Assembly: GCF_002775205.1 (NCBI RefSeq)
Contig: NC_036453.1
Coordinates: forward strand, 27,822,713-27,886,712
DNA: 64,000 bases
DNA from: Xiphophorus maculatus
Taxonomy: Eukaryota; Chordata; Actinopteri; Cyprinodontiformes; Poeciliidae
Reading direction: 5' to 3'
Shown: one piece after another, positions 4,311 to 61,990 of the stretch
How the letters are laid out: each line of letters begins with the position of its first letter
How positions within the stretch are numbered: the stretch's first letter is position 1
Program-made: the position numbers and the translations under genes
The notes under the pieces: generated by a model
Told to the model about the DNA's origin: nothing
Database searches by the model: none
Seen by the model: only the letters and a program-made list of their open reading frames with translations

Positions 4311-7300
4311 GAGAATCTGGAAAATAAACTTTTTGCTTCCTACTACTAAGATACCGAAAAGCTGCAAATTACACTTTTATGGTAGAATTTTCATAGAAGT
4401 CAGATGTTCATTGATATGGAAAATAACACAAGATCCTCCTGTGATAAAAGCTTTGGGCTTAATTGCATCTCATGTATCGCTAATATATCAGATAAACATA
4501 TCGTATCGTTCACAGAGCACAGATGCCCGACCCCAGTAAGATCTTCACTTTCAAAAGTGCTTGCACTAGTCTTGTTCTCCAGGATTAAGAACTGATGGGG
4601 AAACAAATTAAACACGAATCTGTCAACATGTCAACGCATAGGAGTGGGCAGTTATCGCACCTTTTATCGTGAAACATTTCTTATCGTGATAAGAATTTGA
4701 TTTATTGTAGCCTCTATAAATTCCAATTAATGACATTAAATAAAAGAACAAACTCACAGCATTGTCGGAAAGGTTATTTTTACTATTTTGTCCACTTGTT
4801 TGTTCTATGAGAGCATCAATAAATATCAGAACATTTAAAATTATTAATAAATGCAGTTACTGTTTGTAGCTTGGTGATATAAATCATACTTCAGTAAGTA
4901 ATTCACATCCTGAAGAAGCCTGTTTGAAATTGGGATATTTTTCCAAGATCAGGATTTGTGTTTGTGGTGCTCTGAAGACTGTGCAATGCAGTAAAAAAGA
5001 GCAAATTTTTTTTTAATAATAATTTTTTATCATTATCGCAATAGCACCACAAAAAAAATCACAACAAAATCCTATGTCCATACCATCCACCCATAGTAAC
5101 ACATCATTTGACCAATCACTGTGATCAATAGGTTCCTTGGAGCCAATCTAAAAACACAGAATATCATTTCTAAGATATTTTTATTCCAACCTGGTCTCCT
5201 GTCTCTGGGCTTCACTGACTCTGATAATCCCTGTTTCTACCGGGATCAGTCTAACTACTGATGACAGACAACTTGGACGCATTTTCCTAACATGAATGAC
5301 CCAATAAATAGTTTACTTTGCAGAAACTATCACTAAACCCAAGTGCAGTGAAAAAACAAACAACCTAAATTCTACTTTATAACATGATGAACTTAAGAGG
5401 TCTAATCTCTTAATGTGTCTTTCAGTTCCACACAGAAAGCTAAATGTATTCAAAAGCCAACAGAGGATCTCCACTGTATGTTTACAGAGCTTATTAGGGT
5501 CTGATGGAGCATCCGCTTCAGCCTTGTCCTCATCCCCGGGCAAAAACCCCCAAAATAAAACAACATTATGCCACTTCCTCCATTCTGTCCCCTAATAATC
5601 AGAATATTTTGTTCCTATTACATTTATGGTTTTAATAGGCGCTTTTGCGAGAGCACTTCAAAGGCTCGAGCGGCGCTGAAGTGAACTCCACAGCAGCTTT
5701 CACTCTCTGCAGCAGTGGATTGTTTATATGCGCTGGAGATGAGCTTGCAAATGTGTCCTCAAATTGGCAAATAGCAGTTCGGAGCTAAACGGGGAAGAGG
5801 GGAGGTGGGGGGATACGTGTGACGGGCTCACAAATGCTCACTGCAGAGTTAGATTTTTTTTTCTTTCCTTCATGAAAAGGCATAACAAAATATAAACAAA
5901 TCAATGCGATCATTGAAGCAAATCAGACCAAGTAGTGAAAGGTAATCATCATGTAATTGCAAGGAAGGAGTAAAGGGCTGTAATATAGCGAAAAGCGTTG
6001 CTCGGGTCACCTGAACGGAGTGCAGCGTTTTCTCCTGCCCAAAGCCCACACTGCAGCAGCACTCATTACCTGGGTCTCCATAGAGACAACCTCAGCAGCC
6101 CGCACTGGACCGGAGCTCTAAAAGCTTTCATTTCATAGAGCTGCAGCTCTCAGTCCAGAAGAGGTGCAAAATAATAATAACAAAAAAGAAAATAAAATTA
6201 AAAAAACATTCTGCTGGAGGCTGCTCACCAGCCCCTTAGTCTCTGCAGGCCTATTGAAGCACAACAAACAGGCGGCAGAAACAAAGCTATCAGAGATCAG
6301 CAGTCACAGATTCTTATTGCGAATGAAAGACGAGGAGTGAAAATACAAAGGGAGGCTTGTTTATGGTGCATCTGAGTGTTTCATTATTAAAAAAAGAAAA
6401 AAAAAGGCTGCGTTTAATTCTTCGACTCGACACAGAAGCTCAGAGTCAAACAGAGCGAGGTTATTTTAATATATATACGACAAATCTAACATTTATCACT
6501 ATTGCACGACTGGCTGTGTCTGCCATTCAAAGTTTTCCTCTAGCTGTCTGTAGCAGCAGCCATTTTGCAACACTGTTGCCTGGACCAAAGAGACTGAAAA
6601 AGCCATTCACCAGCAAAGCAAACAGAAGAATTTTTTTTATTTTTTAAGCTCGATACAGAGAGACAGTCCTGCAGCAACCAGCGGCGTCCTCTTTTGTTTC
6701 CAGGATCTGTTTCCAGAAAATCATGTTTGCTTTTTTTTTTCTTTTCTAAGTCTCCCCCTCCAAATAACGTCTGTCTTCGCTGAGCCCTTAGCATGGCCAC
6801 AAAATGGTTTGCCTGTCATGTTTGCTTGACGCATCGTCCTCTGATCTCAGTCCACACTCTGGCCACTTTTAACCCCTTTCTTTCAATTTTTCCTCCCAGA
6901 AAAGCTTTAAAACATCCTTCTTTTCTGTCTAACTGATATCTGCCCCCCAACACACGCACATCCCACCCATTACACCACTGTCCCCCCCTTCACAGCCTCC
7001 GCCTTTCCTCAATTCTTGTATTCGCCGTAACAATCATAATAAAAAGTAACCCTTATTCCAAAGTGAGCAGAAAGCTTCTTATCCAGCCCGTCTTTCGAGG
7101 ACTTTGCTGTGCTCAAAACGATGTATGGGTTCATTTAGTGAGATGTGCACTTAGGCAAGGGCTATAAAGGGCTTGTCTTCTTTTTTTTCTTTCCCCCCCA
7201 ATTCAAAATGACTCCACGTCTGTGCTTCTAATATGGCGGGTGCAATGCCGGAAAAAAAAAAAAAAAAACGCAGACAACCTATGTATTCGTAATTCTTAAG

Positions 7301-46763: not shown

Positions 46764-49700
46764 CTAATTACAGCCAAGCAGGTAGGTGTTCTTCAGCACA
46801 CGTAGCAACGTCCCGCTCAACAGGTCATACATGTACATGTAGAGGCCACTGTAGATGTGAGCATAACCTGAAAAATAGAGACTAAGGGTTAGACTCTTTG
46901 ATGAATGGGAATAAGACCTAATTCATCAGACTCCGATGTACGGATAAGCAGGTACATCCAATGGCTGGATAGATGGATGCCTTGTATGTCCATATTTAGT
47001 ATTAAAGTTGAAATGCTAAAAACTGCTGACATGGCCGAATGAGTCAACGGTTCCTGTCAGTCATGTTTAAAGTTTAAATATTGGGCATTGTGGTCATCAT
47101 GACCAATATTGAGCAGGAGTTTCTGCTCAGTTGATGAGCAGAAACTTGACAAATGAGCATTTGTACAAGCTAGCATTTGAAGTAAAGCTAATATTCCCTT
47201 AGATGTTAATGCCAATGCTATATTCACCTTCTTTCTCGGTGGCTGCTGCCACCTTGTTGCTCATTCCGGAAAACGTCTGTCTCACCCAGGAAAATGATTC
47301 CACAGCCTTTCTGCTTTCATCAAAACTGAAGCAACAACAACAAAAATAAAACAAAAATTATAGATGCATAAAACCAAGGCAAATAAATGATCCATGTTGT
47401 AAATGGAGATCAGTGCACATCTGACTCACGTTAAGTAGAAGTAGCCCCCCCAGAACAGATAGGTTTTTCCAGACCGAGCATCTTGAAAAGCAGCGTCGAC
47501 TTTTGTCAAAAAACTTGGCAGACCGAATTCAGAGAGGGACTTTGGGTAGCCCGGTACCGGCTGGGTTCCAGAGAAGGCCCATACGTTAGAACCTTTAAAC
47601 AAAACAGTGGCATCAAAGAATGACTAATGCTAAATGTGAAATAGGTCTGATCCAGTGAATGACTAGGGAGGAATATTACCTTTGAAAAGTAAGACGTTGC
47701 CAGTCCTTGGGTTCTCGTAAGCAGCATCAACGCTTGTTGGGGCGTTGGGCCAGAAGCTTGAGATAAGACTTTTTTGAGGCGTGCTGCTCTGGGAGCTGCT
47801 GTGCCACAAGTAACTGAGAGCAGATATGAACATAAGCATTAGGTGCTAATGCTAAGGAACAATAAACTTCAAAATTTTGATTTAGATATCAGCATTTTGC
47901 CATGGGGGATGAATGTGTAATACCTGTCCTTGAAGAAAAACATTTCTCCTTTCAAGGTGGTGACCGCATCAAACTCCACAGGTGAGCTGCAGACATCAGG
48001 GATGGTGGGAGCCTGAGTTGTAGTTGCTCTGGGATCTCCAGAAGGTTTTGAACCTGTTGTAGTTGCTGCGGTACCTCCAGAAGGATTTGAACCTGTTGTA
48101 GTTGCTGCGGTACCTCCAGAAGGATTTGAACCTGTTGTAGTTTCTGCGGTACCTCCAGAAGGATTTGAACCTGTTGTAGTTGCTGCGGTACCTCCAGAAG
48201 GATTTGAACCTGTTGTAGTTGCTGCGGTACCTCCAGAAGGATTTGAACCTGTTGTAGTTGCTGCGGTACCTCCAGAAGGATTTGAACCTGTTGTAGTTGC
48301 TGCGGTACCTCCAGAAGGATTTGAACCTGTTGTAGTTGCTGCGGTACCTCCAGAAGGATTTGAACCTGTTGTAGTTGCTGCGGTACCTCCAGAAGGATTT
48401 GAACCTGTTGTAGTTGCTGCGGTACCTCCAGAAGGTTTTGAACCTGTTGTAGTTGCTGCGGTACCTCCAGAAGGATTTGAACCTGTTGTAGTTGCTGCGG
48501 TACCTCCAGAAGGATTTGAACCTGTTGTAGTTGCTGCGGTACCTCCAGAAGGATTTGAACCTGTTGTAGTTGCTGCGGTACCTCCAGAAGGTTTTGAACC
48601 TGTTGTAGTTGCTGCGGTACCTCCAGAAGGATTTGAACCTGTTGTAGTTGCTGCGGTACCTCCAGAAGGTTTTGAACCTGTTGTAGTTGCTGCGGTACCT
48701 CCAGAAGGATTTGAACCTGTTGTAGTTGCTGCGGTACCTCCAGAAGGATTTGAACCTGTTGTAGTTGCTGGGGTACCTCCAGAAGGATTTGAACCTGTTG
48801 TAGTTGCTGCGGTACCTCCAGAAGGATTTGAACCTGTTGTAGTTGCTGCGGTACCTCCAGAAGGATTTGAACCTGTTGTAGTTGCTGCGGTACCTCCAGA
48901 AGGATTTGAACCTGTTGTAGTTATTGTGATAACTCCAGAAGGATTTGAACCTAGAGGTGAAAAATTTCAGCACAATTTAAATTCATAATTTCTTGTTCAC
49001 AGAATAAGGTATAATCAGCATCTTTTTTTTTTTTTTTACAAGATTCTTAACAATGGTTTGAACTTTCCCCAGAGATGTAATTGTTTAAGCACTAACCATA
49101 AAGCGACTGGATGCCTCTGACATCATCTTGGGGCAGAACAAAGGTGTTGGGGTCTTTGTAAGAGTACAGAGGGTACATGAGAGCAGCGCGATTGTCAGAG
49201 TGGGACAAGCCCAGAGAGTGGCCGAACTCATGGGCAGCAACCAGGAAGAGGACGTAGCCTAAAGCAGAAAAGTACATAATGAAACGGTCATCCTGGCCAA
49301 TTTCTACAAAGAAAACAAAATCCCTTCCCAAAATAATGTATAAATGACCAACTTACCTTTGCTTGAACGAAATGTGAAGGTCTCATCGTCGTCAAAGTGA
49401 GCGTCTCCTCCGATGTCAGGAGAAGGAGCAAAGGCGTGGGCAAGAGTACTGCCAGGCCCGTCAAAGGGGTAATTATCACCGTGTGCTGTTCGCAAAAAGT
49501 GTCTGATTAGTTTGCAAACCTTTTTCGATACAACCTTTTCAAACATGTTTAATGTTTCAACAATGAAGTGACTGAATCGTTGTTGTGAATAGTAGTACAC
49601 AGCAAAGTCTGCAAAGAACTTTTGCTGTTTTAGTTTCTCCCTTTTCATGGAGCCACTAAGGATGCAATCTTACTGCCGGTGAGACTCTACAAGAAAATTT

Positions 49701-50374
49701 GCTTCCACTCACATCGGCGAGCAAAGGAGATCATGATGTCAGCCGTGCCACTGGTAAGTTTTGTGAACCTCAGAGGAGTGACTTTGGCCCAAACCTCTAG
49801 AGCTCTTCGAATGGAGTCATCCACCTCTGCCTGAGACATGTCTGGGGTGTAATTCACAAACCTGTTTTACAAAAACAACAGTCAACCACATCAGTACCAT
49901 AGCTGGGTATGACATATTTTACTGTACAAGTCCTCTTCAGACCATCCACCTGTATGTGATAGTGTTTTTTTTCCATTTGAGGCCGTCTCCAAAAGTCGAA
50001 TATCGGGCAATGTTTTCATCTGCGACTCCACAGCGGGGCTTCTTCATCACCTCCAGGGTGTTGTTATCCAGAGTCCCCGTTATCCGGAGACCAAAGAATT
50101 TCTGCATCTCACTCAGCTTCTTGCTCATTGGGTTGGCTCCTTTCCGAGATAACGGCTCTTTCTCCTCTGTCAGGTTGAAGAATCTCTTCAGGTAACCCTG
50201 TTAAAGGAGACAGCACAACTCAATGTGAAATCAATGAAACTTAAGGAATTATCCAGGACAGAAAACAAAACATACCTTTGCAAAGCTTTCATCTTGCACT
50301 GTTACTTTGGAGACAGGCACACAGCAGACTGCGGCTGCGAAGCTTAGCAGCACGTAGACACCAAAAGACTTCAT
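46764..50374 (-). CDS. Collagenase-type matrix metalloproteinase with giant repeat hinge (MMP-A)
   Basis: Secreted zinc endopeptidase of the extracellular matrix, mmp13-like. Exons in transcript order: 50276-50374, 49950-50197, 49713-49861, 49357-49485, 49097-49258, 47924-48950, 47680-47813, 47430-47592, 47228-47325, 46764-46867. Phases agree throughout; predicted length is 770 residues against about 470 for the family. Seen in order: signal peptide ([18 protein letters not shown]), propeptide with cysteine switch PRCGVAD (usual form PRCGVPD), catalytic domain with zinc site [11 protein letters not shown] and Met-turn ALMYP, hinge, and a four-blade hemopexin domain whose closing cysteines are in DVCSS and LLGCN. 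There is no furin site or membrane anchor. Exon 6 is 1027 nt because it holds 24 copies of a 39-bp repeat. The matching exon of MMP-B is 124 nt. A TATA-like box lies 48 bp upstream of the ATG, and a possible AATAAA is at 46573-46578. It is the tandem paralogue of the gene at 54393-56790. Confidence 0.95.
48017..48952 (-). repeat. 39-bp coding minisatellite, 24 units, in MMP-A hinge exon
   Basis: Exactly 936 bp, which is 24 units of 39 bp. In the MMP frame each unit reads [13 protein letters not shown] or a near variant. The frame is fixed from both sides: exon 5 ends in ...SLY plus one base, and joining to exon 6 gives G-S-N-P; after the array the frame runs into [12 protein letters not shown], the start of the hemopexin domain. 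Six of 13 residues per unit are Ser or Thr. Asn is followed by Pro, so the Asn-Pro-Ser is not a usable N-glycosylation sequon. At least four units carry Lys for Asn (GSKP), one reads AETTT and one TPATTT. The outer units are the most diverged ([13 protein letters not shown] at the start, [13 protein letters not shown] at the end), as expected for an array that expands internally. Confidence 0.97.
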
Positions 50375-54392: not shown

Positions 54393-56790
<2,398 letters not shown>

Positions 56791-61386: not shown

Positions 61387-61990
61387 TTTTCAAAACCTGA
61401 GTGAAGTTGGCCCCCCCACCTTCTTCAAATTAGACAAAATTGGTGTCAATCAACTCGGCTACGTTTGTGCTGGTTTGTGCAGCAAAGATTTTTGTTTGTG
61501 CTGCTATCATTTTAAAGATATTAAGAAATGTTTTAGAGGTCATCAAAGGTCAACCAGCCCTCTTAATATCTTTAAAATGATAGCTGCACAAATGAAAGTC
61601 TTTGCTGCACGAACCAGCACAAATGTAGCCGAGTTGATTGACACCCATTTCGTCTGATTTGAAGAAGGTGGGGGGGCTGGTTGACCTTTTGACCTTTACC
61701 CTTTCCTTAATATCTTCAAAACCGAAGCAGCACAAACAAAAATCTTTGCTGCACAAACCAGCACAAACGTAGCCGAGTTGATTGACACCCATTTCGTCTG
61801 ATTTGAAGAAGGTGGGGGGCTGGTTGACCTTTGATGACCTCTAAAAACATTTCTTTATATCTTTAAAATGATAGCGGCACAAACGAAAATTTTTGCTGCA
61901 CAAACCAGCACAAACGTAGCCGAGTTGATTGACACCAATTTTGTCTAATTTGAAGAAGGTGGGGGGGCCAACTTCACTCAGGTGTTTTAC
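61387..61990. repeat. Fold-back array, one forward and three inverted units
   Basis: A unit of about 130-160 bp, recognisable by AACTCGGCTACGTTTGTGCT, TGTGCAGCAAAGATTTT and a run of G or C, occurs once forward (61398-61557) and about three times reversed (61561-61690, 61700-61836, 61837-61976). The outermost ends are complementary (CCTGAGTGAAGTTGGCCCCC and its complement). Several spurious ORFs of the form NQLGYVCAGLCSKDF arise from it on both strands. Confidence 0.8.

Follow-up and report, generated by a model that had tools for sequence, protein, structure and literature searches.

The window analysed here is a whole 64-kb stretch of Xiphophorus maculatus DNA (C11:27822713-27886712; the genome comprises 704.3 Mb in 101 contigs), and it does not contain any N. 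MMP-A and MMP-B lie in tandem on its minus strand, with 4.0 kb between the stop of MMP-B and the ATG of MMP-A. The coding part of MMP-A (46764..50374) consists of 10 exons, with GT/AG boundaries at all nine introns and a single open frame of 770 residues. Exons 1-5 are located at 50276-50374, 49950-50197, 49713-49861, 49357-49485 and 49097-49258, and exons 6-10 at 47924-48950, 47680-47813, 47430-47592, 47228-47325 and 46764-46867. A TATA-like box was found 54 nt upstream of the ATG, and AATAAA signals were found downstream of the stop. The coding part of MMP-B (54393..56790) also has 10 exons and encodes 472 residues, which match Peptidase_M10 (1.8e-63) and Hemopexin (1.8e-39). The intron phases of MMP-A and MMP-B are identical at every exon.

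The two genes differ in the hinge between the catalytic and hemopexin domains. Exon 5 of MMP-A (49097..49258, minus strand) carries the zinc site and ends with GIQSLYG. Exon 6 (47924..48950, minus strand, 1027 nt), flanked by the acceptor TTTTTCACCTCTAG and the donor GTATTA, encodes a repeat hinge and the start of the hemopexin domain. Exon 6 of MMP-B (55368-55491, minus strand) encodes a hinge of 18 residues. This agrees with the sequence-only reading of the stretch, which had described a short hinge in the adjacent paralogue 4 kb away.

Tandem Repeats Finder detected an array of period 39 with 24.0 copies, 97% matches and 0% indels at 48017-48952, and its score of 1767 was far above the next-best score in the window (618). 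In the gene model, the 24 units occupy 48016..48950 on the minus strand, and exon 5 supplies the first base of unit 1. The repeat search, the gene model and the intron phases all confirmed the earlier description of 24 in-frame 39-bp units in exon 6 between the catalytic and hemopexin parts. That the array is intron sequence was ruled out, since the splice sites and phases place it in exon 6. Next in strength within the window is an array of 147 bp x 2.8 (61561-61966) upstream of MMP-B.

When the 24 units were aligned in register, 17 were identical, three carried Asn>Lys, one Ala>Pro and one Ala>Glu, and the first and last units were diverged. The variants are placed without period (Lys at units 8, 10, 14 and 24, Pro at 5 and Glu at 21). 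The consensus unit has 13 residues, including six Ser/Thr and one Pro. The hinge was delimited by the last Gly of GIQSLYG on one side and, on the other, by the Asp located two positions ahead of the hemopexin domain's first Cys. Within these bounds it is 319 residues long (27.6 kDa) in MMP-A, and the 18 residues given above for MMP-B were counted likewise. The MMP-A hinge contains 48 Ser and 96 Thr, so the predicted stalk of more than 300 residues with about 140 Ser/Thr was borne out by a count of 144. It has only eight charged residues (five K/R and three D/E) and no Cys. Neither an N-glycan sequon nor a Pfam family match was found in the hinge. In being built of in-frame, Ser/Thr-rich tandem units, the MMP-A hinge resembles a mucin-like coding VNTR.

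The unit has no stop in all three minus-strand frames and in one plus-strand frame. Openness therefore cannot set the reading frame, which is set by the splice phases. With the three minus-strand frames all open, an array free of selection would remain open as well.

The cluster extends beyond the window. Three MMP-B-like, near-identical tandem genes lie directly beyond it (L009-L011, C11:27886904-27907465), a recent local expansion. Genes C, D and E agree in having ten exons, a single stop at the end, 472 residues and 18 residues of hinge; in gene F, which is more distant, the hinge measures about 21 residues. Tandem Repeats Finder did not find the 39-bp array in L009-L012. Synonymous divergence (dS) among B to E was 0.01-0.21 in the four pairs compared (B-C, B-E, D-E and C-D). 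Between MMP-A and B to E it was 0.54-0.69 in the catalytic part and 1.55-2.05 in the propeptide and hemopexin parts. Judged from these values, B to E are recent copies of one another and form an old sister group to MMP-A. For the A-B pair, dS reached 0.61 in the catalytic part, and in the propeptide and hemopexin parts it was 1.7-1.8, close to saturation. The sequence-only reading had offered MMP-B as a natural comparison for MMP-A, and this large divergence makes it a poor one. The lower catalytic value of the A-B pair (49097-50374 and 54393-56790) may reflect homogenisation of catalytic exons between the genes.

The repeat was also searched for in the whole genome. A 30-base core of the unit, with at most three mismatches allowed, gave 22 matches, and the repeat peptide gave seven matches among the best 17 candidates scored. 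All of them lie inside the MMP-A array. That the array was copied from, or is shared with, another gene was ruled out on this basis.

Hinge length was then compared among 25 other MMP loci in which the catalytic match reaches the profile end (24 taken as pieces of about 7 kb, plus gene F). The hemopexin start was located by a regular expression in 18 of the 25 and separately in L034, which gave hinge estimates for 19 loci; no hemopexin start was located in L022, L023, L026, L032, L039 and L040. None of these 19 has a hinge above about 94 residues, the longest being that of L019 (about 94, with an open-frame bound of 147); the bounds are rough at L024, L035-L038 and L041, where more exons may split the hinge or the match may be spurious. 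The hinge of the MMP-9-like locus L034 is about 52 residues long without tandem units, and its linker contains more Pro than the consensus unit of MMP-A. The 39-bp array was absent from the 24 pieces (Tandem Repeats Finder, period at least 9 and copies at least 3). A similarly long hinge was thereby ruled out for B to E and for the 19 of 25 loci with an estimate. Two other observations were made at these loci. In L037, a minisatellite of 22 bp x 52 follows the catalytic exon (gene-strand positions 4334-5479). L040 and L041 (C8:9996257 and C8:10111388) are oppositely oriented, with about 115 kb between them, and encode an identical exon peptide up to WQLYG, an inverted duplicate.

The domain content of MMP-A is that of a secreted MMP. 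It matched Peptidase_M10 over profile positions 1-159 of 159 (1.4e-63) and Hemopexin (3.9e-28), and it has both the HExxHxxGxxH zinc site and the Met-turn ALMYP of the M10A enzymes. No fibronectin type II repeats were present among the six Pfam families listed for MMP-A, which separates it from gelatinase B (MMP-9). The cysteine switch in exon 2 (50100-49950) reads PRCGVADE versus PRCGVPD, with Cys kept and Pro replaced by Ala. The hemopexin domain gave three Pfam stretches versus four in MMP-B, and both bounding Cys are present. The altered switch and the three hemopexin stretches suggest that the MMP-A enzyme may differ in other ways besides its hinge.

Among solved structures of isolated catalytic domains, MMP-13 was the top match (232 bits), followed by stromelysin-1 (214), MMP-20 (210), MMP-2 (206), MMP-12 (202) and MMP-8 (200). 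Multi-domain structure chains score above isolated catalytic domains, with MMP-1 first (365 bits). The best match of exon 5 was again MMP-13 (80.8 bits). Tyr, Asp and Gly residues close to the active site mark the collagenases MMP-1, -8 and -13. MMP-A keeps the Tyr, whereas Asp is replaced by Asn and Gly by Ala; B to E keep all three. Accordingly, the segment after the zinc motif is HSDNRAALM in MMP-A, HSTDIGALM in MMP-1, HSKDPGALM in MMP-13 and HSNDPGALM in B to E. By descent MMP-A is collagenase-3-like, but it may not be a collagenase. The earlier framing of MMP-A as a collagenase acting on triple-helical collagen thus became doubtful, and with two of the three markers lost the triple-helix argument may not apply to it.

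Several known proteins share single features with MMP-A. MMP-9 has a long, O-glycosylated hinge between its catalytic and hemopexin domains. It resembles MMP-A in having a long hinge, and differs in the fibronectin type II repeats that MMP-A lacks and, in this fish, in the shorter linker of L034 without tandem units. PRG4 (lubricin) combines mucin-like repeats with hemopexin-like sequence, but it is not a protease and its repeat is unrelated. The VNTR of GP1BA (platelet glycoprotein Ib alpha) has few copies. According to the available excerpts of PMC1273636 and PMC11018521, GP1BA has a 39-nt in-frame coding repeat in its macroglycopeptide stalk. It is the same kind of repeat as in MMP-A, but GP1BA is a platelet receptor and no protease, and its repeat is polymorphic whereas the MMP-A array is known from one genome.

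MMP-13 and the teleost mmp13 paralogues are secreted enzymes, as MMP-A would be, and like it have a hemopexin domain and no fibronectin inserts. The hinge of MMP-13 is about 20 residues by alignment versus 319 in MMP-A, and MMP-A lacks the Asp and Gly that MMP-13 has after the zinc motif. Collagenolytic MMPs of teleosts, X. maculatus among the species listed, are the subject of a 2025 study whose main text contains no words starting with hinge, linker or repeat (PMC12649390, on teleost mmp13). In the accessible part of PMC3164694, the surface that interacts with collagen is formed jointly by the catalytic and hemopexin domains; flexible linkers and cooperation of the two domains are reported for MMP-1, -2 and -9, and flexibility is shown for MMP-1 and MMP-9. 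For Drosophila Mmp2, GFP placed after hinge residue R477 still gave a secreted protein with a low-level degradation product, and a tandem-repeat hinge is not mentioned in the sections available (PMC5353688). Drosophila Mmp2 is a GPI-anchored insect enzyme, unlike MMP-A. The available parts of PMC6660938 and PMC2915980 contain nothing bearing on the hinge.

No description of an MMP with a comparable repeat hinge was found in the literature searched. The suggestion that this architecture is unusual, and maybe undescribed, therefore holds with respect to the literature and to the hinges of B to E and of the 19 of 25 other loci. The earlier interpretation of the stalk is weakened by the units themselves, which are close to identical and differ almost wholly by replacements, as a young minisatellite would. 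At the sequence level, MMP-A is a real repeat-linker MMP, an unusual variant within a known enzyme family.

We give an even chance to the explanation that a coding minisatellite built a mucin-like spacer into a collagenase-3-like secreted MMP and uncoupled its domains. In this view, 39 bp from the 5' end of the exon encoding the hinge would have been duplicated and, recently, expanded to 24 in-frame copies by slippage or unequal exchange. The product would be secreted, and its 319-residue linker, nearly uncharged, Cys-free and Ser/Thr-rich, would be disordered. The linker would probably be O-glycosylated and form a long mucin-like spacer, holding the domains apart as the sequence-only reading had supposed. 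With such a spacer, the hemopexin domain, which serves binding and localisation, would be largely uncoupled from the catalytic domain. MMP-A would then act normally on peptides and on soluble or unfolded proteins, and poorly in the two-domain attack on triple-helical collagen. If the domains are unable to work together, MMP-A should be weak on native collagen. It has long been asked what part the linker plays when the two domains cooperate on collagen. With a linker about 17 times the length of those in its neighbours, MMP-A offers a natural and direct test case, and it would exemplify how a coding minisatellite can remodel a protease.

A serious rival, credible though short of an even chance, is that the array is a neutral coding minisatellite. 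The hinge would tolerate any in-frame insert, the copy number would drift as a VNTR, and the enzyme would act like a short-hinge one without new function. The unit length is a multiple of 3 with a reading frame free of stops, and the secretion of Drosophila Mmp2 with a large hinge insert, described in the part of PMC5353688 available, fits a tolerant hinge. The near-identical units point to recent expansion or homogenisation. Set against the old split between the genes, they make the array, or the latest round of homogenisation, far younger than the gene.

The differences between units were also counted. With the shared Lys counted once, there were 12 replacement events versus one synonymous event, and with 12.3 of 39 sites synonymous the probability of at most one synonymous event is 0.050, which shows no sign that the unit peptide is preserved. 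On the other side, replacements fell at Ser/Thr codons in two of 12 cases versus an expected share of 0.45 (P 0.042), a weak hint that Ser/Thr are retained in the units. Both tests are post hoc, the events are non-independent and the units at either end could be ancestral. The unit differences do not prove that the peptide is under selection. Against the neutral reading, a 17-fold longer linker would be expected to alter two-domain behaviour. The expansion was tolerated and possibly exploited, and selection for it is not established.

Taking the mucin-like spacer further, one may imagine that it is a length-variable tether joining the protease and hemopexin domains, in which the repeat number tunes reach and localisation. 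MMP-A would then possibly be a non-collagenolytic mucin-like protease, with its short-hinge neighbours keeping collagen cleavage. We regard this extension as rather unlikely.

It is improbable that the array is present in the gene and absent from the protein, either because it is spliced out or because MMP-A is a recent pseudogene or unexpressed. Splice sites were scored with matrices from 45 donors and 45 acceptors of the five cluster genes, many of them near-duplicates, with the MMP-A exon 6 sites excluded. The exon 6 acceptor scored 5.2, the lowest among the true acceptors, and an acceptor-like site (2.3) follows at exon position 965, beyond the array; these sites, together with the altered cysteine switch and the three of four hemopexin stretches, would fit such a loss. 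A second acceptor-like site at position 1023 (6.3) would leave 5 nt of exon. By arithmetic, however, the use of either site shifts the frame, and skipping of exon 6 does so too because its length is 1 mod 3. The best internal donor (position 1010) scored 4.3, narrowly below the weakest true donor (4.5), and the donor within each unit scored 1.8. Splice-site scoring of exon 6 found no in-frame route for splicing the array out.

The frame of MMP-A is also open across ten exons, and dN/dS versus B, C, D and E was 0.14-0.26 in the propeptide, catalytic and hemopexin parts, which shows purifying selection on MMP-A through most of its history. Consistently, the array looks like part of a genuine spliceable coding exon whose frame is fixed by the adjoining exons. 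An assembly artefact, in the array itself or in its length, is very improbable: short reads make it difficult to count 17 identical 39-bp units, but the variant units are placed without period, the window is free of N and the chromosome-scale assembly is presumably long-read, the exact copy number of 24 being that of the assembly.

Copy E of the cluster (L011, C11:27905050-27907465) shows patches of divergence. Its exon 4 has 74% identity to that of MMP-B versus 89-99% in the other exons, and its exon 2 encodes a diverged cysteine switch, PRCGVLEKPLG. These patches look like gene conversion.
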